Shown here: positions 8,587 to 29,184 of the stretch, piece by piece
Layout: the number at the start of each line of letters is the position of its first letter
Position numbering within the stretch: the first letter of the stretch is position 1
NCBI RefSeq assembly: GCF_002287065.1
Contig: NZ_NSJZ01000002.1
Coordinates: forward strand, 248,001-312,000
Direction of reading: 5' to 3'
Length of the DNA: 64,000 nt
From: Paracoccus salipaludis
Lineage (GTDB): Bacteria; Pseudomonadota; Alphaproteobacteria; Rhodobacterales; Rhodobacteraceae
The notes under the pieces: generated by a model
Database searches by the model: none
What the model saw: the letters and a program-made list of their open reading frames with translations, nothing else
Told to the model about the DNA's origin: nothing
Program-made: the position numbers and the translations under genes

Positions 8587-10203
<1,617 letters not shown>

Positions 10204-10204
10204 C

Positions 10205-13180
10205 TCAGGCTCCGATCGTGATGGCGTCGTGCACCAGCGCGTCCTGTTCCGCCTTGTGGCGGCTGGCCAGGCCCGTGGCGACCGAGGCCTGGGCCACGCG
10301 GCCGACATAGCGCGCGCGCGTGTGGCTGGCGCCCACGCGGTTCAGGACCCACTCGAGGTTCGGCTCGACGAAGCTCCAGGCGCCCTGGTTCTTGGGCTCT
10401 TCCTGGCACCAGACGATCTCGGCCCCCTTGAAGCGTTCCAGCTCCTTGGACATCGACTGCGCGGGGAAGGGATAGAACTGTTCCAGCCGCAGCAGATAGA
10501 CGTCCTTGGCCCCCGCCTCGTTCCGGGCGGCCAGAAGGTCGTAATAGACCTTGCCCGAGCAGATCACGACGCGGCGAATCTGGTCGTCGGGGGCCAGCTG
10601 GAAGTCCACCTTGCCGCGGTCCGCGTCGTCATGCAGCACGCGGTGGAAGGTCGAGCCCGTCTGGAACTCGTCCGCCGTCGAGACCGCCTGCGGATGGCGC
10701 AGCAGCGACTTGGGCGTCATCAGGATCAGCGGCTTGCGGAAGCCCCGGTGCAGCTGGCGGCGCAGGATGTGGAAGTAGTTGGCCGGGGTCGTCAGGTTGG
10801 CGACGATCCAGTTGTCCTCGGCCGACATCTGCAACCAGCGCTCCAGCCGGGCCGAGGAGTGTTCCGGTCCCTGGCCCTCGAAGCCGTGGGGCATCAGGAC
10901 GACCAGGCCCGACATCCGCAGCCATTTCTTCTCGCCCGACGAGATGAACTGGTCGAACATGATCTGCGCGCCGTTGGCGAAGTCGCCGAACTGGGCTTCC
11001 CACAGCGTCAGCGCGTTCGGCTCGGCCATGGAATAGCCGTATTCGAAGCCCAGCACCGCGTATTCCGACAGCATCGAGTCGATGACCTCATACCGCGCCT
11101 GTCCGTCGCGGATGTGGTTCAGCGGGTAATGCCGGTCCTCGGTGGTCTGGTCGATGAAGGCCGAATGGCGCTGGCTGAAGGTGCCGCGCGTGGAATCCTG
11201 GCCCGCCAGGCGGACCGGATGCCCTTCGACCAGCAGCGAGCCGAAGGCCAGCGCCTCGCCCGTGGCCCAGTCGAAGCCGCGCCCGGTCTCGAACATGGCG
11301 CGCTTGCTGTCCAGCAGGCGGCTCACCGTCCTGTGCAGGTCGAAGCCCTCGGGCACGCGGGTCAGGGCCGCGCCCACCTGCGCCATCGTCTCGGGCGAGA
11401 TGCCGGTCTCGCCGGGGTGATATTCGGACCCTTCGGGCTTGAGGCCCGACCACTTGCCGTCCAGCCAGTCGGCCTTGTTCGGCTTGAAGGTCTTGCCCAG
11501 CTCGAATTCCTCGTTGAGCGTCGCCTGGAAGGCGGCCTTCATGTCCTCGATCTCGCCCTCGGGGATCAGGCCGTCCTTGACCAGCCGCTCGGTGTACAGC
11601 TGCAGCGTCGTCTTGTGGCCCTTGATGTGCTTGTACATCGTCGGGTTGGTGAACATCGGCTCGTCGCCTTCGTTGTGACCGAAGCGGCGATAGCAGAAGA
11701 TGTCGATGACCACGTCCTTGTGGAACTGCTGGCGGAACTCGGTCGCGACCTTGGCGGCATGGACCACGGCCTCGGGGTCGTCGCCGTTCACGTGGAAGAT
11801 CGGCGCCTCGACCATCAGGGCGATGTCGGTCGGATAGGGCGAGGTCCGGCTGAAATGCGGGGCCGTGGTGAAGCCGATCTGGTTGTTGACGATGATGTGG
11901 ATCGTCCCGCCCGTGCGGTGGCCGCGGATGCCCGACAGCTGCAGGCATTCCGCCACCACGCCCTGGCCCGCGAAGGCCGCGTCGCCGTGCAGCAGCACGG
12001 GGATGGCCGAGGTGCGGTCGGTGTGGTCGTTGTACTGGTCCTGCTTGGCGCGGACCTTGCCCAGCACCACCGGGTTCACGGCTTCCAGGTGCGAGGGGTT
12101 CGCCGTCAGCGACAGGTGGACGCTGTTGCCGTCGAACTCGCGGTCCGACGAGGCGCCGAGGTGGTATTTCACGTCGCCCGAGCCGTCCACGTCCTCGGGC
12201 TTGTAGCTGCCGCCCTGGAATTCGTGGAAGATCGCGCGGAAGGGCTTGCCCATCACGTTGGCCAGCACCGACAGGCGGCCCCGGTGGGGCATCCCGATGA
12301 CGACCTCTTTCGCGCCCAGCGCGCCGCCGCGCTTGATGATCTGCTCCATCGCCGGGATCAGCGCCTCGCCGCCGTCAAGGCCGAAGCGCTTGGTGCCCAT
12401 GTATTTCACATGGAGGAACTTCTCGAAGCCCTCGGCCTCGACCAGCTTGTTCAGGATCGCCTTGCGGCCTTCCTGGGTGAAGGCGATCTCCTTCCCGTAG
12501 CCCTCGATGCGTTCCTTCAGCCAGGCGGCCTGCTCGGGGTCCGAGATGTGCATGAACTGCAGCGCGAAGGTGCCGCAATAGGTGCGCTTCATCAGTTCGG
12601 TGATCTGGCGGATCGACGCGACCTGAAGGCCCAGCACGTTGTCGATGAAGATCGGCCGGTCCATGTCCGAGGCGGTGAAGCCGTAGGTCGCCGGGTCAAG
12701 CTCGCCCAGGGGCGGCATCTCGCGCATCCCCAGCGGGTCGAGGTCGGCGTGCAGGTGCCCGCGGATGCGATAGGCGCGGATCAGCATGATCGCCCGGACG
12801 CTGTCCAGCACGGCGCGCTGAAGCTGTTCGTCCGACAGCGACACGCCCTTTTCGTCGGCCTTGGCGGTGATCTTCTTGATCGCGGCCTTCGCCTCGGCCT
12901 GCGAGGCCATCGGCCATTCGCCCGTCAGCGCAGCGGTGTTCTCGTCCGCGGGCATCGGCGGCCAGTCGGGGCGCGCCCAGCTTGCGCCCTGGGCACCCCG
13001 CGCGGCGGTCGCCTGCGCCTCGCCCAGGCTGCGGAAGTATTCGTCCCAGGCGTGGTCCACGGCGGCCGGATCCTTCGCCCACTGACCGTAGAGCTGTTCC
13101 ACATAGGCCGCGTTCGCCCCCTGCAGGAAGGACGTGTCGCGGAAGGCGGAGTTCGGGGATTGATCGTTCATGACGGACAC
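10205..13180 (-). CDS. sucA: 2-oxoglutarate dehydrogenase E1
   Basis: E1 decarboxylates 2-oxoglutarate with thiamine diphosphate and succinylates the E2 lipoyl groups. The 991-aa product is full length. The N-terminal [14 protein letters not shown] segment that contacts E2/E3 is present, as are the ThDP-binding [13 protein letters not shown] and NNQIGFTT motifs, catalytic-histidine GMPHRGRL, and the C-terminal transketolase-like region. It follows sucD after about 100 bases and abuts odhB (one base between). Also called odhA. Confidence 0.97.
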
Positions 13181-13280: not shown

Positions 13281-14165
13281 TTACCGGCCCATGGCCTTCA
13301 GCACCGCCTCGCCCAAGCCCGCGGGGCTATCGGCGACGATGATGCCGGCGGCCTTCATCGCGGCGATCTTGGATTCCGCGTCGCCCTTGCCGCCCGAGAC
13401 GATGGCGCCGGCATGGCCCATGCGGCGGCCGGGGGGCGCGGTGCGGCCCGCGATGAAGCCGGCGGTCGGCTTCCAGCGGCCGCGCTTCTTCTCGTCGGCC
13501 AGGAACTGCGCCGCGTCTTCCTCGGCCGCGCCGCCGATCTCGCCGATCATGATGATGGCGTCGGTCTCGTCGTCGGCCAGGAACATTTCCAGCACGTCGA
13601 TGTGCTCCATCCCCTTGATCGGGTCGCCGCCAATGCCGACGGCCGAGGACTGGCCGAGGCCCACGTCCGAGGTCTGCTTGACCGCCTCATAGGTCAGCGT
13701 GCCCGAGCGCGAGACCACGCCCACGCGGCCGCGCTTGAAGATCGAACCCGGCATGATGCCGATCTTGCATTCGTCGGGCGTCATGATGCCGGGGCAGTTC
13801 GGCCCGATCAGGCGCGAGGACGAGCCTTCCAGCGCGCGCTTGACCTTCATCATGTCCAGCACCGGAATGCCTTCCGTGATGCAGACGATCAGCGGCACCT
13901 GCGCGTCGATCGCCTCAAGGATCGAGTCCGCCGCGAAGGGCGGGGGGACGTAGATGACCGAGGCATTCGCGCCGGTCTTCTCGACGGCCTCATGAACCGA
14001 GTTGAAGACGGGCAGGTCCAGATGCGTCGTGCCGCCCTTTCCGGGGGTCACGCCGCCGACCATCTGCGTGCCATAGGCAATCGCCTGCTCGGTGTGGAAG
14101 GTCCCCTGCGAGCCGGTGATGCCCTGCGTGATGACCTTGGTGTTCTTGTCGACGAGAATGGCCAT
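13281..14165 (-). CDS. sucD: Succinyl-CoA synthetase alpha subunit
   Basis: The alpha subunit binds CoA and carries the phosphohistidine of the reaction succinyl-CoA + NDP + Pi to succinate + CoA + NTP. The 294-aa product has the N-terminal CoA-binding [12 protein letters not shown] motif and the active-site histidine (about H251) in [17 protein letters not shown]. It pairs with sucC, but here a 186-aa secreted protein gene is inserted between them; sucD begins 53 bases after that gene's stop. Confidence 0.97.
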
Positions 14166-14781: not shown

Positions 14782-15975
<1,194 letters not shown>

Positions 15976-16077: not shown

Positions 16078-16106
16078 GTGATCACAGGCCGCCGGCGTGT
16101 GATCAC
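16078..16106. promoter_or_regulatory. Paired GTGATCAC palindromes upstream of sucC
   Basis: Two perfect 8-bp palindromes (16078-16085 and 16099-16106) start 21 bp apart, two helical turns. The same pair with the same spacing lies upstream of sdhC at 22345-22373. The second copy is extended to TGTGATCACA. They are 103-131 bases ahead of the sucC start, a plausible operator position. The binding protein is not identified. Confidence 0.7.
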
Positions 16107-16223: not shown

Positions 16224-18058
<1,835 letters not shown>

Positions 18059-18088
18059 GGCCGGGCCCGCACGGCGGCGGGCCCGGCC
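18059..18088. terminator. Bidirectional hairpin between convergent tauE and DUF892 genes
   Basis: A perfect 12-bp stem (GGCCGGGCCCGC/GCGGGCCCGGCC) encloses a 6-base loop directly after the tauE stop. There is no T-tract on either side, but its strength and convergent position fit a shared terminator. Confidence 0.65.
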
Positions 18089-18095
18089 ACGCGGA

Positions 18096-18635
18096 TCATT
18101 CCTGTTCTTCGTCCTCGTCGTCCAGGTCGTCGGGCGACTCGCCCGCCGCCATCGGATTGGCGCGGTCCTCGGCGATCTCGGACAGAAGCTCGTCGGCGGC
18201 CTCTTCCTGTTCCAGGATGTCGTTCATCAGGTCGGCGACCTGGTCCAGGCCCAGCAGTTCCGCATAGGCGCGCAGGCTGCCGTAGCGGGCGATCTCGTAA
18301 TGCTCGACCGCCTGGCAGGAGAAGATGATGGCCGCGTCGCCCGCCGCCGTTCCGCCAAAGTCCTGCAGCAGCGAATCGCCCTCCTTGAGGATGCCGTCCA
18401 TCGCGTCGCATTTCTCGGACCGGGGCTTTTCGCCCATCGCCTCGAAGGCTTCCTCGAGCATGGTGATCTGCTCGGCGGTTTCCTCAAGGTGGCGTTCCAG
18501 GCCGCGCTTGAGTTCCTCGTCCTGGGCCGCCGCGATCATCTTGGGCAGGGCCTTCTGGATGCGCGCCTCGGCGTAATACATGTCCTCGAGCCCATGCTTG
18601 AGCAGGTCGGTCAGTCCCATCTCTTCACTCGCCAT
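18096..18635 (-). CDS. DUF892 (YciE/YciF-type) ferritin-like protein
   Basis: The 179-aa product is helical, with repeating acidic/His helix motifs of the ferritin-like DUF892 fold (EDMYYAEARIQKALPKM, ERHLEETAEQI, AVEHYEIARYGSLRAYAE, LEQEEAADELLSE) and a very acidic C-terminal tail. YciE/YciF proteins are stress-induced in enterobacteria, and a metal site is possible. Upstream, GGAAC at 18702-18706 followed 17 bases later by GCTT (not CGTT) is only a partial ECF-type promoter. The gene is divergent from the malyl-CoA thioesterase gene. Biochemical role unknown. Confidence 0.85.
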   Translation of the reverse strand: MASEEMGLTDLLKHGLEDMYYAEARIQKALPKMIAAAQDEELKRGLERHLEETAEQITMLEEAFEAMGEKPRSEKCDAMDGILKEGDSLLQDFGGTAAGDAAIIFSCQAVEHYEIARYGSLRAYAELLGLDQVADLMNDILEQEEAADELLSEIAEDRANPMAAGESPDDLDDEDEEQE

Positions 18636-18806
18636 GTGTTGTCCTTTCGAGGTTGTGCGGAGCAGGTCATCGGACGTGGAAAGCCCGACGAAGGCGGTCG
18701 GGTTCCACTAACAAACTCTAACGGCCGGCACGGAACGCCCTTGCCGAGGGCAGGGCGAGTGGGCACTCATCGCGGGGACTTTTTTCAAGCAGGAGAGCTT
18801 GCCGCC

Positions 18807-19646
18807 ATGTCGCGCCCCTACCGCTCGGTCCTCTACATTCCCGCGGCCAACCAGCGTGCGATGGAAAAGGCGCGAACGCTTGCCGCCGACGCGATCATCT
18901 TCGACCTCGAGGACGCGGTGGCCCCGGCCGAGAAGGCCGGCGCGCGCGAGCTGCTGAAGGCGGCGCTGGCGCAGGATTACGGCGGGCGGGCGCGGATCGT
19001 GCGCATCAACGGCTTCGACACCGAATGGGGCCGGGACGACGCGGCGGCCTTCGCCACCGGCGCGGACGCGGTGCTGGTGCCCAAGGTCAGCCACCCCGGG
19101 GACCTGGACGCGGTCGCGGCCATCGTGCCGGACACGCCGCTGTGGGCGATGATGGAAACCGCGCTGGGAATGCTGAACGCCGCCGCCATCGCGGCGCATC
19201 CCCGCCTTCAGGGCATGGTGATGGGGACCAACGACCTTGCCAAGGAACTGGGCAGCCGCAACCGCCCCGACCGGCTGGCGATGCAGGCGGGCCTCGGGCT
19301 CTGCCTGCTGGCGGCGCGCGCGCATGGGCGGGTGATCGTGGACGGGGTCTTCAACGCCTTCAAGGACGACGAGGGCCTGCGCGCCGAATGCGAGCAGGGC
19401 CGCGACATGGGCTTTGACGGCAAGACCCTGATCCACCCCGCGCAGCTTGACATCGCCAACGCCGCCTTTGCGCCGACCGAGGCCGAGGTGGACCTGTCCC
19501 GCCGCCAGATCGAGGCCTACGAGGCCGCCATCGCGGAAGGCAAGGCGGTCGCCGTGGTGGACGGCCGCATCGTCGAGAACCTGCATGTCGAGACAGCACG
19601 CCGCACCCTGGCGAAGGCGCAGGCGATTGCCGCCCTGGCGGGCTGA
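18807..19646 (+). CDS. mcl2: CitE/HpcH-family lyase, probable (3S)-malyl-CoA thioesterase (Mcl2)
   Basis: The 279-aa product belongs to the HpcH/HpaI aldolase-citrate lyase (TIM-barrel) family: RSVLYIPAANQRAMEKA start, FDLEDAV metal-ligand motif, VRIN, and GKTLIHPAQL near the end. The position two genes before mesaconyl-CoA hydratase matches the Rhodobacter mcl2-mch cluster, where the enzyme hydrolyses (3S)-malyl-CoA to malate in the ethylmalonyl-CoA pathway. A malyl-CoA or citramalyl-CoA lyase role is the alternative. Start ATG 18807 was chosen over an earlier in-frame start that overlaps the DUF892 gene on the opposite strand. Confidence 0.75.
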   Translation: MSRPYRSVLYIPAANQRAMEKARTLAADAIIFDLEDAVAPAEKAGARELLKAALAQDYGGRARIVRINGFDTEWGRDDAAAFATGADAVLVPKVSHPGDLDAVAAIVPDTPLWAMMETALGMLNAAAIAAHPRLQGMVMGTNDLAKELGSRNRPDRLAMQAGLGLCLLAARAHGRVIVDGVFNAFKDDEGLRAECEQGRDMGFDGKTLIHPAQLDIANAAFAPTEAEVDLSRRQIEAYEAAIAEGKAVAVVDGRIVENLHVETARRTLAKAQAIAALAG

Positions 19647-19685
19647 TGGCAGGGTGGCGCGAAACCGCATGAAGGATGCCCTCGC

Positions 19686-20231
19686 ATGATCCTGCTGATC
19701 CTCGGTGTCGCGCTCTGGTGGGGGGCGCATCTCTACAAGCGCATCGCCCCTCATCCCGGGCCGGACAACCGGCGCAAGGGCATCGTCACCGTGGCGCTGG
19801 TCCTGTCGGTGATCCTGATGACGGTCGGCTACAAGCGGGCCGACGTGACGATGTGGTGGGCTGCCGGCCCGGCGCTGAAGGGGATCAACAACCTGCTGGT
19901 GCTGGTGGGCTTCTTCCTGTTCGCCTCGGCCGGGATAAAGAACCGCATCGGCACCCAGATGCGGCACCCGCAGCTGACGGGCTTCGCGCTGTGGGCCTTC
20001 GCGCATCTGCTGGTGAACGGCGACCTGCCGTCCTTTGTGCTGTTCGGCGGGCTGCTTCTGTGGGCGCTGGTCGAGATGGCCGTCATCAACCGCGCCGAGC
20101 CGAACTGGGTGCGCCCGCCGCACCAGACCGTGATGCGCAAGGAAGTCATGGCCGCCGTCGGCGCCGTGGCCGCCTATCTGGTCGTCGGCCTGATCCACGC
20201 TTGGCTCGGCTACAACCCGTTCGGAGCCTGA
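19686..20231 (+). CDS. NnrU-family membrane protein
   Basis: The 181-aa protein has about five membrane helices and the NnrU-like HLYKRIAPHPGPDNRRKG loop and GFALWAFAHLLVNGD motif. NnrU was first described in denitrifiers near nitric/nitrous oxide reduction genes, but its function is unclear and many homologues lie elsewhere. Here it is embedded between mcl2 and mch, 2 bases from the DUF1737 gene, so it is probably co-transcribed with the ethylmalonyl-CoA pathway genes rather than with denitrification genes. Confidence 0.85.
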   Translation: MILLILGVALWWGAHLYKRIAPHPGPDNRRKGIVTVALVLSVILMTVGYKRADVTMWWAAGPALKGINNLLVLVGFFLFASAGIKNRIGTQMRHPQLTGFALWAFAHLLVNGDLPSFVLFGGLLLWALVEMAVINRAEPNWVRPPHQTVMRKEVMAAVGAVAAYLVVGLIHAWLGYNPFGA

Positions 20232-20233
20232 GG

Positions 20234-20440
20234 ATGCCCCAGATCTACCGCCTGCTGACCGAGGACGACACCTCGGCCTTCTGCCACAAGGTCAGCCTCG
20301 CGCTGTCGAAGGGCTGGGCGCTGCACGGCGCGCCCTCGATCGCCTTCGACCCGACCCGCGGCATCATGCGCTGCGCCCAGGCGGTCACGAAGGAGATCGA
20401 GGCCGACTATCACCCCGACATGAAGCTGGGCGAGCAGTGA
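20234..20440 (+). CDS. DUF1737 domain protein
   Basis: A 68-aa small soluble protein with the DUF1737 layout: MPQIYRLLTEDDTSAFCHKV, then WALHGAPSIAFD, then CAQAVTKE. The fold is predicted as a short helix plus strands. It starts 2 bases after the NnrU stop and ends 5 bases before mch, so it is in the same operon. No activity is known for the domain. Confidence 0.8.
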   Translation: MPQIYRLLTEDDTSAFCHKVSLALSKGWALHGAPSIAFDPTRGIMRCAQAVTKEIEADYHPDMKLGEQ

Positions 20441-20445
20441 GGACC

Positions 20446-21483
20446 ATGGCGACCAAGACCAACGCAGGCCGTTTCTTCGAGGATTACCGCATCGGCGAGG
20501 TGATCCCCCACGCCGTCCCCCGCACGCTTTCGGGCGGCGAGCGGGCGCTGTATCACGCGCTCTACCCCGCGCGGCACGCGCTGCATTCCTCGGACGACTT
20601 CGCGCGGGCCTGCGGGCTGGCCGCCTCGCCGCTGGATGACCTGATCGCCTTCCACACGGTCTTCGGCAAGACGGTCCCGGACGTGTCGCTGAACGCGGTG
20701 GCGAACCTGGGCTATGCCGAGGGGCGCTGGCTGGAACCCGTCTGGCCCGGCGACACCCTTCGCGCGGAATCCGAGGTGATCGGGCTCAAGCAGAACTCGA
20801 ACGGGGCTTCGGGGAACGTTTATGTCCGCACGCGCGGGCTGAACCAGCGCGACGTGCCGGTGCTGGAATATGTCCGCTGGGTGATGGTGCGCAAGCGCGA
20901 CGCCGCCAGCCCCGCGCCCGACGAGGTGGTGCCCAGGCTCGACCGCGTGGTGCTGCCGCAGGCGCTGGTGATCCCCGACGGGCTCGACTTCAGCGACTAC
21001 GACTTTACCCTTGCCGGAGAGCCGCACCGCTGGGGCGACTACCAGGTGGGCGAGGTCATCGACCACGTGGATGCCGTGACGGTGGAAGAGGCCGAGCACA
21101 TGCTCGCCACCCGGCTGTGGCAGAACACGGCCAAGGTCCACTTCGACGCGACCTTCCGCGAGGACGGCAAGCGCCTGATCTATGGCGGCCATGTCATCAG
21201 CCTGGCCCGCGCGCTCAGCTTCAACGGGCTGGCCAATGCCCAGCTGATCGTGGCGCTGAATGCGGGCGCCCACGCCAACCCCTGCTTTGCGGGCGACACC
21301 GTGCGCGCCTGGTCAGAGGTGCTGGACCGCGCGCCGACCAACGCCCCCGGCGTGGGCGCCGTCCGGCTGCGGCTGGTCGCCCACAAGGGCCCGGCGGGCG
21401 ACCTGACGCTGAAGCGCGAGGACGGCCGCTATGCGCCGCATGTGCTGCTCGATCTCGACTACTGGGCGCTGATGCCGCTGTGA
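20446..21483 (+). CDS. mch: Mesaconyl-CoA hydratase (double MaoC/hot-dog)
   Basis: In the ethylmalonyl-CoA pathway this enzyme hydrates mesaconyl-CoA to beta-methylmalyl-CoA. The 345-aa product contains two hot-dog (MaoC-like) halves; the N-terminal NAGRFFEDYRIGEVIPH and ERALYHALYPARHALHSSDDFA segments match the Rhodobacter Mch family as I know it. ATG 20446 follows the GGA of a GTG-start alternative at 20437. It ends in a 4-base overlap with the next gene. Together with mcl2 it indicates acetate assimilation without isocitrate lyase, or as a supplement to it. Confidence 0.85.
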   Translation: MATKTNAGRFFEDYRIGEVIPHAVPRTLSGGERALYHALYPARHALHSSDDFARACGLAASPLDDLIAFHTVFGKTVPDVSLNAVANLGYAEGRWLEPVWPGDTLRAESEVIGLKQNSNGASGNVYVRTRGLNQRDVPVLEYVRWVMVRKRDAASPAPDEVVPRLDRVVLPQALVIPDGLDFSDYDFTLAGEPHRWGDYQVGEVIDHVDAVTVEEAEHMLATRLWQNTAKVHFDATFREDGKRLIYGGHVISLARALSFNGLANAQLIVALNAGAHANPCFAGDTVRAWSEVLDRAPTNAPGVGAVRLRLVAHKGPAGDLTLKREDGRYAPHVLLDLDYWALMPL

Positions 21484-22340
21484 GGCGGAGGCTTGCCCCG
21501 GCGGCCCTGGCCGTCGGGCTGGTGGTCCTGGCCGCGACCTATGCGGGCGCGCTGCACCCGGCGGGCGACTCGCTGGGGGTGGGACGGCCGTTCCTGGCGG
21601 CGCTGCTGGTGGTGGCCGGGCTGGTCATCCGGGGAGGGATGGGCTGGGCGGCCGTTGCGGGCGGGCTGCTGGCGCTGGCGCCGGTCCTGTGGGCCATGCG
21701 GCCGATCGAGGCCCCGGGGCAGGGGATCATCGTCTACCAGAAGAACCTGCTTTATTCCGTTGACGATCCTTCGGAAATCGCGGCCGACATCCAAGACAGC
21801 GGGACCGATGTGGCGCTGTTGCAGGAACTGAGTGCGCAGAACGGCGCACTGAGAAAGATGCTGGCCGAGGTGCTGCCGCACCAGGGGGTCTGTCCCTCGA
21901 ACACGCCCGGCACGGTGGCGATCCTGTCGCGCTGGCCCTTCGAGGGCGATCTGCATTGTGCGACCGGGGTAGGGCTTGCGTGGGTGCAACTGATGCTGCC
22001 GCAGGGACAGGCGGCTGTCGTGTCGCTGCACCTGGACTGGCCCTGGCCGCAGGGCCAGCCGGAACAGGTCGCGCAACTGCTGCCCCGGCTGCGCGAGGTG
22101 CCGCGCCCCGTGATCCTCGCGGGCGACTTCAACGCCATGCCGTGGTCGCAGACGGTCGCCAGCATCGCCGAGGCGACCGGCACGCACCGCGCGGGCCCCC
22201 TGCGGCCCAGCTTCTCGCTGCTGGGTCTGCCGATCACCATCGACCATGTGCTTGCCCCGGAAGGCTGGACGGCCGTCACCGCGATGCGTCCGCGCCTCGG
22301 ATCTGACCACCGCGGGCAGAGGGCGGTGCTGGCTCCGTGA
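21480..22340 (+). CDS. Membrane-anchored endonuclease/exonuclease/phosphatase-family protein
   Basis: The 286-aa protein starts with GTG 21480, whose last bases form the mch stop (GTGA overlap), so it is translationally coupled to mch. Three hydrophobic segments (about residues 5-70) precede an EEP (Mg-dependent phosphoesterase) domain with VALLQELS, HLDWPWPQ, GDFNAMPWS and a final GSDHRG motif; the metal-binding and catalytic residues appear intact. The domain would face the periplasm. Substrate (nucleic acid, phospholipid or other) unknown. sdhC follows 170 bases later. Confidence 0.75.
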   Translation: MRRRLAPAALAVGLVVLAATYAGALHPAGDSLGVGRPFLAALLVVAGLVIRGGMGWAAVAGGLLALAPVLWAMRPIEAPGQGIIVYQKNLLYSVDDPSEIAADIQDSGTDVALLQELSAQNGALRKMLAEVLPHQGVCPSNTPGTVAILSRWPFEGDLHCATGVGLAWVQLMLPQGQAAVVSLHLDWPWPQGQPEQVAQLLPRLREVPRPVILAGDFNAMPWSQTVASIAEATGTHRAGPLRPSFSLLGLPITIDHVLAPEGWTAVTAMRPRLGSDHRGQRAVLAP

Positions 22341-22344
22341 CTTT

Positions 22345-22373
22345 GTGATCACTGTCTCGCGGCTTGTGATCAC
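22345..22373. promoter_or_regulatory. Paired GTGATCAC palindromes upstream of sdhC
   Basis: Two perfect GTGATCAC palindromes at 22345-22352 and 22366-22373, exactly 21 bp apart, each preceded by TT. The identical pair precedes sucC. They lie 138 to 166 bases ahead of the sdhC start. A dimeric or tetrameric regulator binding two adjacent turns of the helix is a plausible reader. Confidence 0.72.
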
Positions 22374-22510
22374 GATTGGCGCTAACAGCGCGAAAGCCTG
22401 CCCGGGACTTGAACAATCCCGTGACAGCGACGAAAGGATGGCTAGAGAGACTCCGATTTCAAGCCAGCCCGCGCGCCAGCTTGGCCCGCGCTTTTCGGAC
22501 AGGAGCGCCC

Positions 22511-22900
22511 ATGGCAGACATCCCCCGCGGCAACCGCCCGCTTTCGCCTCACCTGAGCGTCTATCGCCTGCCGATGGCGGCGGTCACCTCGATCATGACC
22601 CGCATCACCGGGCAGGCCCTGCTGGCCGGGCTTCTGCTGATCGTCTGGTGGCTGGTCGCGGCTGCGACCGGGCCCCGCGCCTTCGCCACCGCCGATTGGG
22701 TGGTGCGCAGCTGGATCGGCTACCTGGTGCTGCTCGGCTCGGCCTGGGCGCTGTGGTTCCACTTCCTGTCCGGCATCCGGCACCTGTGCTATGACTCGGG
22801 CCTGCTGCTGACCCGCGACGACGCGCAGCGCGCAAGCTGGGTGCTGATCATCGGCTCGGTGGTGCTGACGCTCATCACCGTCATCCTGTTCGCGTTCTGA
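22511..22900 (+). CDS. sdhC: Succinate dehydrogenase cytochrome b556 subunit
   Basis: This 129-aa membrane anchor has three transmembrane helices. The N-terminal RPLSPHLSVYR signature and the heme-ligand histidine in the FHFLSGIRHLCYD helix are present. With SdhD it binds heme b and ubiquinone and anchors SdhAB to the cytoplasmic membrane (complex II). ATG 22511 follows an AGGAG RBS. It is the first gene of the sdh operon, 11 bases before sdhD. Confidence 0.95.
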   Translation: MADIPRGNRPLSPHLSVYRLPMAAVTSIMTRITGQALLAGLLLIVWWLVAAATGPRAFATADWVVRSWIGYLVLLGSAWALWFHFLSGIRHLCYDSGLLLTRDDAQRASWVLIIGSVVLTLITVILFAF

Positions 22901-22911
22901 GGAACCGTCCC

Positions 22912-23328
22912 ATGCGCTACATCACCCCCCGCAAGGCCGCCCGGGGCCTCGGCGCCGCCGGTCCCAGCACGGGCACCGCGCAGCACTGGTCCATGACCGT
23001 GACCTCGGTCGCGCTGCTGATCCTGACGCCCGCCTTCATCTTCGTCGTCGCCACGGCCCTGGGCCTGCCGCATCACGCGGTGTTCGCCTATTTCAGCCGT
23101 CCCTATCCGGCGATCGTCACCGCGCTGTTCCTGATCGTGGGGATGCTCCACTACATCAACGGCACCCGCATCATGATCGACGACTATGCCGATCACACCG
23201 AGCGCCGCGTCGCCATCATCGCCTCGCAGCTGTTCGGCTGGGCGGTGATCGCCGCCGCCGTCTATGCGCTGGCGCGCATGGCGCTGTCCCCCGTGGTCGC
23301 GCCCGTCGCCGCCGTCGTCGTCAACTGA
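22912..23328 (+). CDS. sdhD: Succinate dehydrogenase membrane anchor subunit
   Basis: The 138-aa product has three transmembrane helices and the family [17 protein letters not shown] segment, in which a histidine ligates heme b and an aspartate-tyrosine pair lies at the quinone site. It starts 11 bases after sdhC and ends 7 bases before sdhA. Confidence 0.93.
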
Positions 23329-23335
23329 GGTTTCC

Positions 23336-25138
23336 ATGTCCGCTTACGAATATCAGACGCACGACTATGACGTGGTGGTGGTTGGCGCGGGCGGCGCGGG
23401 CCTGCGCGCCACCCTCGGCATGGCCGAGCAGGGCTTCCGCACCGCCTGCGTGACCAAGGTCTTCCCGACGCGCAGCCACACCGTCGCGGCCCAGGGCGGC
23501 ATCGCCGCCTCGCTGTCGAACATGGGCCCCGACAACTGGCAGTGGCACCTTTACGACACCGTGAAGGGGTCCGACTGGCTGGGCGACACCGACGCGATGG
23601 AATACCTCGCGCGCAGCGCCCCCGCCGCGGTCTATGAGCTGGAACACTACGGCGTGCCCTTCTCGCGCACCGAGGAAGGCAAGATCTACCAGCGTCCCTT
23701 CGGCGGCCACACGACCGAGTTCGGCGAAGGCCCGCCCGTCCAGCGCACCTGCGCCGCCGCCGACCGCACCGGCCACGCCATCCTGCACACGCTGTATGGG
23801 CAAAGCCTCAAGGAAAAGGCCGAGTTCTTCATCGAGTACTTCGCGCTCGACCTGATCATCACGGACGGGGCCTGCACGGGCGTCGTCTGCTGGAAGCTGG
23901 ACGACGGCACGATCCACGTCTTCAACGCCAAGATGGTGGTGCTGGCGACCGGCGGCTATGGCCGCGCCTATTTCAGCGCGACCTCGGCCCACAGCTGCAC
24001 CGGCGACGGCGGCGGCATGGTGGCCCGCGCGGGCCTTCCCCTGCAGGACATGGAGTTCGTGCAGTTCCACCCGACCGGCATCTACGGCTCGGGCTGCCTC
24101 ATCACCGAAGGGGCGCGGGGCGAGGGCGGCTACCTGACCAACTCGGAAGGCGAGCGGTTCATGGAGCGCTATGCGCCCACCTACAAGGATCTCGCCTCTC
24201 GCGACGTGGTCAGCCGCTGCATGACCATGGAGATCCGCGAAGGCCGCGGCGTGGGCGAGCAGAAGGACCACATCTTCCTGCATCTGTCGCACCTGCCCCC
24301 CGAAACGCTGCACGAACGTCTGCCGGGCATCAGCGAATCCGCCAAGATCTTCGCGGGCGTCGATGTCACGCGCGAACCGATCCCGGTGCTGCCGACCGTC
24401 CATTACAACATGGGCGGCATCCCCACGAACTACTGGGGCGAGGTGCTGGCCCCCGAGCAGGGCAACCCCGACCGCGTCTTCCCCGGCCTGATGGCGGTGG
24501 GCGAGGCGGGCTGCGCTTCGGTCCACGGGGCGAACCGCCTGGGGTCGAACAGCCTGATCGACCTTGTGGTCTTCGGCCGCGCCGCCGCGATCCGGGCCGG
24601 CGACGTCATCGACCGCGCCAGCGCGATCCCCTCGACCAACAAGGCCGAGGTCGAGCGCGCGCTCGACCGCTTCGACTCGCTGCGCCACGCCCAGGGCGGC
24701 ACGCCCACGGCGGTGCTGCGCGACCGGATGCAGCGCACGATGCAGTCGGACGCGGCGGTGTTCCGCACCGACAAGACGCTGGCCGAGGGCGTGGACAAGA
24801 TGCGCGAGATCGCGCTGGGCCTGGATGACCTGCGCGTCACCGACCGCAGCCTGATCTGGAACAGCGACCTGATGGAAACGCTGGAGCTGACGAACCTGAT
24901 GCCGAACGCGCTGGCGACCATCGTCGCCGCCGAAGCGCGCAAGGAATCGCGCGGGGCGCACGCGCACGAGGACTACCCCGAGCGGGATGACGCCAACTGG
25001 CGCAAGCATTCGCTTGCGTGGGTCGATGGAAATGACGTCAAACTCGCCTATCGGCCCGTCCACCTCGAGCCTTTGACGAAGCACGAGGACGGCGGGATCG
25101 ATCCAAAGAAGATCGCACCGAAAGCGAGGGTCTACTGA
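23336..25138 (+). CDS. sdhA: Succinate dehydrogenase flavoprotein subunit
   Basis: SdhA oxidises succinate to fumarate and passes electrons to FAD. The 600-aa product has the N-terminal FAD motif [10 protein letters not shown], the covalent FAD histidine H48 in [10 protein letters not shown], the [21 protein letters not shown] active-site stretch (split here into HPTGIYGSG and TEGARGEGG), and the C-terminal RSLIWNSDL region. Start ATG 23336. Its TGA overlaps the start of a lipoprotein gene (TGATG), where most bacteria place sdhB next. Confidence 0.97.
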
Positions 25139-26629: not shown

Positions 26630-28360
26630 ATGACCCGAGCCGCAGAATCCGTCGCCCCTGATGTCCCGCTGAAGGATGGCGAGTCGGTCCGTGCCGGACG
26701 GCAGGTGCCTTCCGGGTCGAAGGGCGCGGTTCCCGGCACCTGTCTTTTCTCGGCGGTGCGCAACGAGGCGCCGTTCCTGATCGAGTGGATCGCCTATCAC
26801 AAGGTCATCGGTTTCGAGAGATTTCTCATCTTCGCGAATCCTTCGACCGATGGAACGGACGAGTTGCTGGCGGCGCTGCACGATGCGGGCGAGATCACCT
26901 ATGTCCCGCATGAGCCGCCCGCAGGAGTCGCAGCCCAGCCCAACGCGGTCCGGCTTGCCAACGAAGGGAATTACATCCCCGACGGCGCATGGGTCGCGTG
27001 GCTGGACGCGGACGAGTTCCTGAACATCCACCACGCCGACGGCCGGCTGGATTCGCTGATCGAGTGGATGGGCGACCGCGTCTGCATGCTGATCCAGTGG
27101 AAGGTGTTCGGCGACAACGGCCACGCCGGCTTCGGCGGGCGGTTTGTATCCGGTGACTTCGTGAAGGCCGCCACTCCGGACGATCCCGTGAATGACGAGA
27201 TCAAGTCCTTCTTCAGGAAGGGCAACGGCATCACGGGCTTTTCGTCGACGGACATACATCGTCCTGCCGTTTCGCGGAACAGGCACCTGACCCCTGCGGC
27301 TGTCGCGACCGGTTCCGGGCGGCAACTGCTGTCCAACCGGCGCTCGAAGGCCTGGCTTTCCGGAAAGGCAGGCGGGCACAACAAGACCGCGCCTGCCGAT
27401 CGCGGCTTCGAGATCGCCCAGGTGAACCACTACACGGTGCGGACGCCCGAATTCTTCCTGCTGAAGCGCGTCCGGGGGGCCGGGTACAGGGCAGACCAGG
27501 AAGGCGTGGTCAACCCGCGTCATCGTGCAAGCTATTACCGCACATACAACCGCAACGAAGCCGAAGACCGCAGCATCCTGCGCTGGGAAGCCGCATGTGG
27601 CCGCGAGATGGCGCGCCTTCTGGCAATCCCCTCCGTCCGCGCGGCGCATGACGCGGCAATGGAAAAGGTGCGGCAGGAGATTTCCCGGCTGTCGGCCGAG
27701 GCGCTGGCCGAACTGACGGGCGACCGCCCGCAGGAGGAAGTGACCGGACCCGCCCCCGAGGAGCCCCCGGCCCCGGCGCAGCCCGGATTCCGCCTGACCT
27801 TGCCGGATCAGGAAGCCGAGGCGCTGGAACGGGCCTATGCCTCGGCCCGGGTGGTGCTGGAATACGGCAGCGGCGGCTCGACCTTTCTTGCGCTGCGTTC
27901 GGGGGCCGAGTTCGTGATGTCGGTGGAAAGCGACAAGGCCTGGTCCGAACGGATCGGCGCGGCCCTGGGCGCCGAGTTCCCCGCGGACCGCTTCCTTGTC
28001 CATCACGCCGACATCGGCCCGACCGGCCCCTGGGGCCGTCCCGCCGGAAGCGGGGCCTACCGGCGGTTCCACCTTTACGCCACGGGCATCTGGGACCGTC
28101 CCGGTTTCCGCCATCCCGATGTCGTGCTGATCGACGGGCGCTTCCGGGTGGCCTGTTTCCTGGCCGCGATGATCCGCTGCACGCGGCCTGTCACCGTGCT
28201 GTTCGATGACTATATCGACCGCAAGTACTACCACTGGATCGAGGAGCTGATCCCCCGCGACGAACTGACCGGGCGGATGGCGCGCTTCACGGTCTGTCCC
28301 CAATCCCTGCCGCCCGAGCAGCTGACACGCTTCGCGGGCGCCTTCACCGACCCGCGCTGA
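26630..28360 (+). CDS. Fusion: family-2 glycosyltransferase plus methyltransferase-like domain
   Basis: A 576-aa protein. Residues about 38-330 match the Glyco_tranf_2_4 type: LFSAVRNEAPFLIEWIAYHK, GFERFLIF, the WLDADEF metal motif and a late VNHYTVRTPEFFLLK block. After a Pro/Glu-rich linker (about 360-385), residues 395-576 have an EYGSGGSTFLAL glycine-rich loop, a VMSVESDKAW acidic strand and PDVVLIDGRFRVACF, resembling a class I SAM-dependent methyltransferase or its degenerate relative. Base composition seems slightly lower in GC than the sdh genes. sdhB starts 44 bases after its stop. Sugar and target unknown. Confidence 0.75.
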   Translation: MTRAAESVAPDVPLKDGESVRAGRQVPSGSKGAVPGTCLFSAVRNEAPFLIEWIAYHKVIGFERFLIFANPSTDGTDELLAALHDAGEITYVPHEPPAGVAAQPNAVRLANEGNYIPDGAWVAWLDADEFLNIHHADGRLDSLIEWMGDRVCMLIQWKVFGDNGHAGFGGRFVSGDFVKAATPDDPVNDEIKSFFRKGNGITGFSSTDIHRPAVSRNRHLTPAAVATGSGRQLLSNRRSKAWLSGKAGGHNKTAPADRGFEIAQVNHYTVRTPEFFLLKRVRGAGYRADQEGVVNPRHRASYYRTYNRNEAEDRSILRWEAACGREMARLLAIPSVRAAHDAAMEKVRQEISRLSAEALAELTGDRPQEEVTGPAPEEPPAPAQPGFRLTLPDQEAEALERAYASARVVLEYGSGGSTFLALRSGAEFVMSVESDKAWSERIGAALGAEFPADRFLVHHADIGPTGPWGRPAGSGAYRRFHLYATGIWDRPGFRHPDVVLIDGRFRVACFLAAMIRCTRPVTVLFDDYIDRKYYHWIEELIPRDELTGRMARFTVCPQSLPPEQLTRFAGAFTDPR

Positions 28361-28404: not shown

Positions 28405-29184
28405 ATGGTCCAGTTCAACCTTCCCAAGAACAGCCGCATCCGGGTCGGAAAGACCTGGCCCAAGCCCGAGGGCGCGACGAACCTGCGCCGCTTCAACATC
28501 TACCGCTGGGACCCGGACACCGGCGAGAACCCGCGGCTGGACACCTACTGGATCGACCTCGACAAGTGCGGTCCGATGGTCCTGGACGCGCTGATCAAGA
28601 TCAAGAACGAGATCGACCCGACGCTGACCTTCCGCCGGTCCTGCCGCGAGGGGATCTGCGGGTCCTGCGCGATGAACATCGACGGCGGCAACCATCTCGC
28701 CTGCATCTACGGCATGGACGAGATCAAGGGCGACGTGAACATCTACCCGCTGCCGCACATGCCGGTGGTCAAGGACCTGATCCCGGACCTGACGCATTTC
28801 TATGCCCAGCACGCGGCGGTGCACCCCTACCTGATCACCGAGACGCCCGCGCCGGGCAAGGAATGGCGCCAGTCGATCGAGGACCGCAAGAAGCTCGACG
28901 GCCTGTATGAATGCATCCTCTGCGCCTCCTGCTCGACGGCCTGCCCGTCCTACTGGTGGAACCAGGACCGCTTCATGGGGCCTGCGGCGCTGCTGACCGC
29001 CTATCGCTGGATCATCGATTCCCGCGACGAGGCCACGGGCGAGCGGCTGGACGAGCTGGAGGACCCCTTCAAGGTCTACCGCTGCCACACGATCATGAAC
29101 TGCACCAACACCTGCCCGAAGGGCCTGAACCCGGCGAAGGCCATCGCCGAGATCAAGCACATGATGGTCGAGCGCGCGATCTGA
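28405..29184 (+). CDS. sdhB: Succinate dehydrogenase iron-sulfur subunit
   Basis: SdhB carries electrons from FAD to ubiquinone through [2Fe-2S], [4Fe-4S] and [3Fe-4S] clusters. The 259-aa product has the first cluster cysteines C80, C85, C88 and C100, the [17 protein letters not shown] motif and the C-terminal [17 protein letters not shown] motif. ATG 28405 follows a GAAAGGAT RBS. It is separated from sdhA by four genes, about 3.3 kb, and ends at a strong terminator, so the operon probably runs sdhC to sdhB. Confidence 0.97.

Follow-up and report, generated by a model that had tools for sequence, protein, structure and literature searches.

Do the identical pairs of GTGATCAC palindromes that precede sdhC and sucC in this 64,000-nt stretch of Paracoccus salipaludis DNA (hereafter the window) place succinate dehydrogenase, succinyl-CoA synthetase and 2-oxoglutarate dehydrogenase under one regulator and, if so, under which? 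An exact-match search of the window returned exactly four copies of the box, and these resolve into two pairs, each with 13 bases between its boxes and a period of 21 bp. The pair at 16078-16106 consists of a promoter-proximal box (16078..16085) and a promoter-distal box (16099..16106, conserved before sucC in relatives), and it lies within the gap between mdh and sucC, 102 bp upstream of the sucC start. The pair at 22345-22373 consists of a promoter-distal box (22345..22352) and a promoter-proximal box (22366..22373, conserved before sdhC in relatives), 137 bp upstream of the sdhC start; the preceding frame (21117-22340) ends 5 bases before this pair begins.

Identical palindrome pairs at the heads of two TCA-cycle operons

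The suc operon is headed, on the reverse strand, by sucC (succinyl-CoA ligase beta subunit; 14782..15975, NCBIfam NF001913) and includes on the same strand sucD (alpha subunit; 13281..14165, NF004230), sucA (2-oxoglutarate dehydrogenase E1; 10205..13180, NF006914) and sucB (E2; 8587..10308, NF004309), the start codons of the latter two being approximate. The malate dehydrogenase gene mdh (16224..17201, reverse strand, NF004863) lies upstream of the sucC pair. On the forward strand, sdhC (cytochrome b556 subunit of succinate dehydrogenase; 22511..22900, TIGR02970) precedes sdhD (membrane anchor; 22912..23328, TIGR02968 with 36.9 bits, below the cut-off of 41.8), sdhA (flavoprotein subunit; 23264..25138, TIGR01816, approximate start codon) and sdhB (iron-sulfur subunit; 28405..29184, Pfam Fer2_3 and Fer4), whose product is 91% identical to a match downstream of sdhA in P. 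denitrificans. The original prediction of paired identical palindromes with a 21-bp period before sdhC and sucC is exact, and the NCBIfam assignments give the genes as it had named them.

Two features of gene order are recorded here in their own right. The end of sdhA (25138) and the start of sdhB (28405) are about 3.3 kb apart, compared with an SdhA-SdhB gap of 756 bp in P. denitrificans, and the interval holds a glycosyltransferase-2-like gene (26630-28360) along with frames without a Pfam match. Between mdh and the gene before sdhC (17312-21483) lie genes for a TauE-like exporter, an HpcH/HpaI-type lyase, an NnrU protein and a mesaconyl-CoA-hydratase-like MaoC protein.

Shuffled versions of the window contained a mean of 0.97 single GTGATCAC boxes (maximum 3), in agreement with the earlier estimate of about one perfect 8-mer per 65 kb, and a pair with a 21-bp period arose in none of 100 shuffles. 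Extending the search to the whole 3.67-Mb genome revealed no further pairs with 10-16 bases between boxes. Arithmetic from the shuffle rate gives a chance expectation of ~0.001 pairs at one exact spacing per 3.67 Mb and ~56 single boxes genome-wide. The claim that two such pairs are unlikely to arise by chance is borne out by the shuffles and by the restriction of such pairs, at these spacings, to the two loci.

The pair is conserved before sdhC and sucC across the family

A search for GTGATCAC pairs with 12-14 bases between boxes found the pair in 89 of the 91 genomes from the same genus, this one included, and in 266 of 295 genomes of a family draw comprising about one genome per genus, mostly exactly twice per genome, and in 1 of 57 genomes from other families of the class. 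A reversed control pattern was absent from all 295 family genomes. Of the 75 forward matches listed by a wider search of 71 genomes, which admitted periods between 11 and 41, period 21 accounts for 61 (counted by eye), the remainder having a period of 20 (three), 22 (one) or scattered values (ten).

To identify the downstream genes, as the original prediction had proposed, we surveyed 40 stretches from 35 other genera, chosen by their listed pair coordinates, together with 32 own, same-genus and other-family loci. The 102 pairs in this survey precede sdhC (52), sucC (46), sucA (1) or none of these (3), such that 99 of the 102 lie upstream of one of the three genes, at 99-191 bp from its start codon. 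The single sucA case (locus L081), where the start of sucA and not of sucC follows the pair, is the arrangement predicted for an operator that goes with the head of the operon. The spacer between the boxes varies freely across relatives while the boxes are constant, indicating that the conservation is not simple sequence identity of the promoters. Random placement away from TCA-cycle genes and absence from orthologous promoters, the two outcomes that had been named as speaking against a regulatory role, were both sought in these related-genome samples and neither was found.

We then inspected Paracoccus genomes with a single exact pair, using a sample of 21 that comprised 17 of the 23 single-pair genomes of the 91 and four named genomes (at least two of these four also belong to the 91-genome set, as judged by identical coordinates), to which two genomes without a pair (G061 and G086) and two controls carrying two exact pairs each (G016 and G022) were added, making 25 in all. 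Three of the 25 gave no sucC match (G019, G061 and G086). A match was obtained in 20 of the 21 single-pair genomes, and in each of these 20 a pair of period 21 precedes sucC, four of the pairs being exact and 16 having one mismatch. The sucC pair is likewise present in the two controls.

Eight genomes of the 295-genome draw have three pairs. In G281, G337 and G431 a row of three boxes in 21-bp steps lies upstream of sucC, and in two genera a third pair precedes fumC (G188, period 21; G411, period 22). No TCA-cycle gene adjoins the third pairs at loci L275 (G384), L286 (G376) and L319 (G422), and we do not claim these as members of the regulon. The L275 pair falls in coding DNA, in a folC-like frame named by eye; the other two (L286:1501-1528 and L319:1658-1686) lie between predicted frames, near queuosine-precursor-transporter-like and PotF-like binding protein genes, and may reflect chance or a wider regulon. 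Likewise, no TCA-cycle gene was found beside the pairs at L003 (from another family) and L014 (period 22), or beside pairs at other periods (L324-L329), none of which are claimed. In P. denitrificans, P. kondratievae and P. versutus (L279, L280 and L281), an additional single GTGATCAC lies ~214-225 bp upstream of the sdhC pair.

A GntR-family protein is the candidate regulator

The genome contains 16 FCD-domain matches, and among the corresponding FCD-GntR loci (~3 kb each) only one, L050 on contig C112, harbors a GTGATCAC box. The gene at this locus (L050:1989-2663) encodes a protein of 224 aa with a GntR wing-helix (PF00392, residues 17-69) and an FCD domain (PF07729, residues 87-206), both above cut-off, which is the N-terminal and C-terminal arrangement of the FadR/FCD subfamily, and the protein is 98% identical to its P. 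chinensis counterpart. The box ends 9 bases upstream of the ATG. A box is found within 250 bp upstream of the gene, usually ~8-10 bases ahead of an ATG, in 71 of its 80 nearest relatives from named genomes, which are mainly those of Paracoccus; among the best 30 regulator matches across family genomes, the box at the gene's own start is present in 15 and absent in 15. The regulator gene of G333 (L205) has two GTGATCAC boxes before its start at a 13-bp period, unlike the 21-bp pairs.

According to a passage of PMC6365646, GTGATCAC is a reported motif of AkgR from Rhodobacter sphaeroides, which is termed there a transcriptional activator. In the portion of PMC4344238 that deals with these genes, a prediction from 2015 places sucCD, sdh (listed as RSP_0974-6) and the genes for 2-oxoglutarate dehydrogenase under the control of RSP_0981, an R. 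sphaeroides protein of the GntR family. A single RpiR-family match that had been considered as AkgR was dropped, as PMC6365646 and PMC4344238 indicate a GntR protein. In 13 of 40 pair-positive genomes the regulator match lies ~8-18 kb from the suc or sdh pair, and in the other 27 the regulator is absent, on another contig or further off. Such linkage is consistent with the R. sphaeroides locus numbers, in which RSP_0981 falls close to the sdh genes. We take RSP_0981 to be AkgR, in keeping with its family and targets, and the primary paper on the AkgR regulon is reportedly that of Imam et al. (2015) in mBio. The features of the AkgR regulon recur here, namely a GTGATCAC operator, sucCD, 2-oxoglutarate dehydrogenase and sdh as targets, and a co-inherited GntR-family protein. 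On the basis of family, motif, targets and gene linkage, the L050 protein is a candidate orthologue of RSP_0981, and the regulator of both pairs is most likely the Paracoccus orthologue of AkgR.

Of the single boxes elsewhere in the genome we inspected 12, three of which lie less than 100 bp before a start codon, at the GntR gene (L050), a formate dehydrogenase gene (L051) and an AbrB-family gene (L061); the others fall within predicted frames, at frame ends or away from any start. Among the inspected single-box genes we claim the GntR gene alone as a member of the regulon. At L051 (2137-2148; C13:85136-85147) a perfect 12-bp palindrome, TTGTGATCACAA, lies between selD and the gene for the formate dehydrogenase-N alpha subunit, which has an in-frame TGA that probably encodes selenocysteine; this site may be a further target of the L050 protein or of a related GntR protein. 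At L061 (1552-1559; contig C35) a single box lies 9 bases before the start of a gene for an AbrB-family membrane protein, matching the spacing seen at the GntR gene, and the AbrB-family gene adjoins TctC-/TctA-like tricarboxylate transporter genes; this box is either a chance match or a carboxylate-uptake target.

Regulator and pair are for the most part co-inherited and co-lost

We next compared the distribution of the regulator, counted as present at no less than 60% identity over its full length, with that of the pair, taking as pair-positive the 40 genomes with pair coordinates among the matches listed. The regulator is present in 38 of these 40 genomes and in 6 of the 29 that are pair-negative (Fisher p = 9e-11, with the qualification that related genomes are not independent). 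Seven regulator matches contain one stop; in each it coincides with the usual end of the gene, near residue 217 of 224.

As a search of the pair-negatives with up to three mismatches gave as many as 119 matches per genome among the matches listed, their sucC promoters were instead inspected directly. This was done for 22 of the 29, leaving out G347 (cut upstream), G168, G293 and G312 (sucC matches ~50% identical) and G268, G301 and G318 (no match). The sucC promoter was evaluable in two of the six regulator-bearing negatives, G186 and G437, and in both of them a pair of period 21 that departs from the exact form by one mismatch precedes sucC. In the 20 evaluated negatives without a full regulator at that identity, the best sucC stretch has 5-7 mismatches in 18, four in G303 and three in G164. 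G303 retains a regulator remnant with five stops alongside its decayed pair, and in G255 the regulator match is partial and the pair absent. The regulator relatives of G427 (49%) and G200 (44%) are found without a pair. Exceptions occur on both sides: G260 has the pairs and no regulator above 39% identity (its assembly comprises ~320 contigs), G179 has the pair with a best regulator relative of 49%, and G164 has no regulator match, yet a pair-like stretch with three mismatches before sucC. Judged from these genome sequences, regulator and pair appear to have been largely inherited and lost together.

The pair is phased with a putative -35-like element at sdhC

Alignment of 51 sdhC and 42 sucC promoters with period 21 revealed that the outer flanks of the pair favour T before it and A after it. 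In the window, a putative -35-like element of the sdhC promoter, GTGACA (22421..22426, forward strand), begins 47 bases after the pair, and a tentative -10-like element, TAGAGA (22443..22448, forward strand), was assigned by eye 16 bases after GTGACA; a generic sigma-70 scan at sdhC found no promoter. Of the 51 sdhC promoters, 43 have a GTGAC[ACT] motif 47-79 bases downstream of the pair, compared with a mean of 2.6 and a maximum of 8 in 200 shuffles. Its distances after the pair are 47-48 (16 promoters), 57-60 (24), 69 (1) and 78-79 (2). Among the other eight promoters, a one-letter variant is present at 46-48 or 58 in five and at 76 in L082, leaving two with none. Since these distance classes step by ~10-11 bp, we read them as holding the -35-like element and the pair to one face of the helix, an arrangement that would suit an activator contacting RNA polymerase from the upstream side. 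By eye, the classes seem to follow clades, so that they may represent only about four independent changes.

The A/T richness of the DNA from pair to promoter has a best period of 10.0 bp at sdhC and 9.5 bp at sucC, a periodicity reached by at most 0.06% of column or block permutations of the same profiles. At sucC, a conserved T-run lies ~48 bp after the pair, and no clear -10 element of the core promoter was found in the aligned promoters.

Discussion

We propose that AkgR-type dimers very probably occupy both pairs and raise transcription of sdhC and sucC. Both pairs would serve as operators for the AkgR orthologue encoded at L050, a GntR-family protein with an FCD ligand domain, each GTGATCAC (in its extended form, TTTGTGATCACA) presumably binding one dimer. 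The two dimers would then be neighbours on one face of the DNA, separated by two turns of the helix, and would lie upstream of the core promoters of sdhCDAB and sucCD-sucAB, with the boxes of the sdhC pair at roughly -85 and -106 from the predicted transcription start. Because the sdhC pair lies 47 bp before the -35-like element, an upstream-activator position, we infer joint activation of the steps from 2-oxoglutarate to fumarate, such that 2-oxoglutarate dehydrogenase, succinyl-CoA synthetase and succinate dehydrogenase would rise together. Shared control is the more certain part of this proposal; that its direction is activation we regard as probable, on the strength of the R. sphaeroides sentence in PMC6365646. 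The single box 9 bases before the start codon of the regulator suggests autorepression, through which the regulator would limit itself. We guess from the FCD domain that the ligand is an acid of the TCA cycle. We entertain more tentatively, and with some doubt, the notion that a fixed two-dimer platform on one helix face, phased with the promoter in complete helical turns and linked to it by A/T tracts at ~10 bp that bend or wrap the DNA, defines TCA-cycle control throughout the family, and not the box by itself.

Many FCD-GntR proteins are repressors, and the same GntR protein might bind the pairs as a repressor or as a ligand-dependent switch able to repress. The box at the regulator's own start codon is in a repressor position, and GlcR provides a precedent for a GntR repressor in P. 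denitrificans in the part of PMC11323563 devoted to it. We nevertheless consider repression unlikely at the pairs, as the sdhC pair lies at least 47 bases ahead of the -35-like element and not over it, and as AkgR is called an activator in the relevant passage of PMC6365646. An origin of the pairs by chance, or as part of a dispersed repeat with no regulatory function, is exceedingly improbable: although an 8-mer palindrome occurs about once per 64 kb by chance and the third pair at L275 falls in coding DNA, genomes usually have two pairs at near-fixed spacing before the same genes, the spacer varies while the boxes stay, and imperfect pairs keep their place.

It is also conceivable that another regulator acts on the pairs, be it a different FCD-GntR paralogue, NtrC or the LacI-family protein CceR, which we take to be RSP_1663. 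The genome has FCD paralogues to offer (the 16 matches above), RSP_1663 and NtrC are also among the predicted regulators of sdh in R. sphaeroides in the section of PMC4344238 on these targets, and a Pseudomonas GntR protein 32% identical to AkgR was proposed to recognize the same palindrome in the corresponding passage of PMC6365646. However, the box is found at just one of the 16 FCD loci and it is the presence of that gene that tracks the pair, the RSP_1663 motif given in that section of PMC4344238 (GTT-N6-8-AAC) differs, and the CceR regulon of P. denitrificans, where the pairs exist, lacks sdh and 2-oxoglutarate dehydrogenase in the portion of PMC11323563 that describes it. We therefore deem this alternative very unlikely. 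Coordination of the suc/2-oxoglutarate dehydrogenase genes and sdh by one regulator, as originally predicted, remains the best-supported reading in view of the sites, their conservation and the co-inheritance, with binding itself a deduction from these.

The proposed AkgR control resembles several described systems to differing degrees. It shares with the AkgR regulon of R. sphaeroides the GntR family, the GTGATCAC motif and the succinyl-CoA synthetase, 2-oxoglutarate dehydrogenase and succinate dehydrogenase targets, as far as the relevant passages of PMC4344238 and PMC6365646 describe them, and differs in extending to Paracoccus and the family at large, in the 21-bp pair, in the helix phasing, in the co-loss and in fumC in two genera. 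The GntR protein PS417_07240 of Pseudomonas simiae likewise has GTGATCAC near its own gene (-47 to -40), but the excerpt of PMC6365646 on this protein describes a single box, proposes a deoxyribonate catabolic cluster as the target and gives 32% identity to AkgR. GlcR, grouped with the PdhR/LldR-type clades of the FadR subfamily in the section of PMC11323563 concerned, has the same combination of GntR wing-helix and FCD; by contrast, it represses glycolate oxidase, and the targets of GlcR and of PdhR/LldR-type proteins differ from sdh and suc. CceR is similar in being a global regulator of central carbon metabolism, and the predicted targets of RSP_1663 include sdh and mdh in the portion of PMC4344238 that lists them, whereas CceR belongs to the LacI family, has another motif and, in the description of its P. 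denitrificans regulon in PMC11323563, does not include sdh or 2-oxoglutarate dehydrogenase. The boxes themselves do not match GTT-N6-8-AAC, the CceR operator. CRP/FNR-type sites have the form TGTGA-N6-TCACA or TTGAT-N4-ATCAA, and GTGATCAC, which on reading has no spacer between GTGA and TCAC, is not of this type.

For R. sphaeroides, then, the prediction of the regulon and the motif are already in print. What is added here is the fixed two-turn pairing, the helix-phased distance to the sdhC promoter element, the co-decay of regulator and pair, fumC in two genera and the assignment to Paracoccus. A partial search of the literature found no published description of the 21-bp pairing or of AkgR in Paracoccus, and we make no claim that these are unpublished.

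In P. denitrificans, sdh, 2-oxoglutarate dehydrogenase and fumarase were placed outside the CceR regulon in 2024 and other mechanisms were suggested, according to the part of PMC11323563 on these genes. This species has an exact sdhC pair, a sucC pair with one mismatch and a boxed regulator gene (L323, L304 and L150). The two-dimer platform, if that reading is true, would supply the Paracoccus TCA-cycle control that is absent from CceR. The practical gain lies in P. denitrificans, which with both pairs and the boxed regulator lends itself to work on the TCA-cycle genes outside the CceR regulon. More broadly, the pair constitutes a widespread family marker of coordinated control of the lower TCA cycle and points to its likely regulator in Paracoccus.
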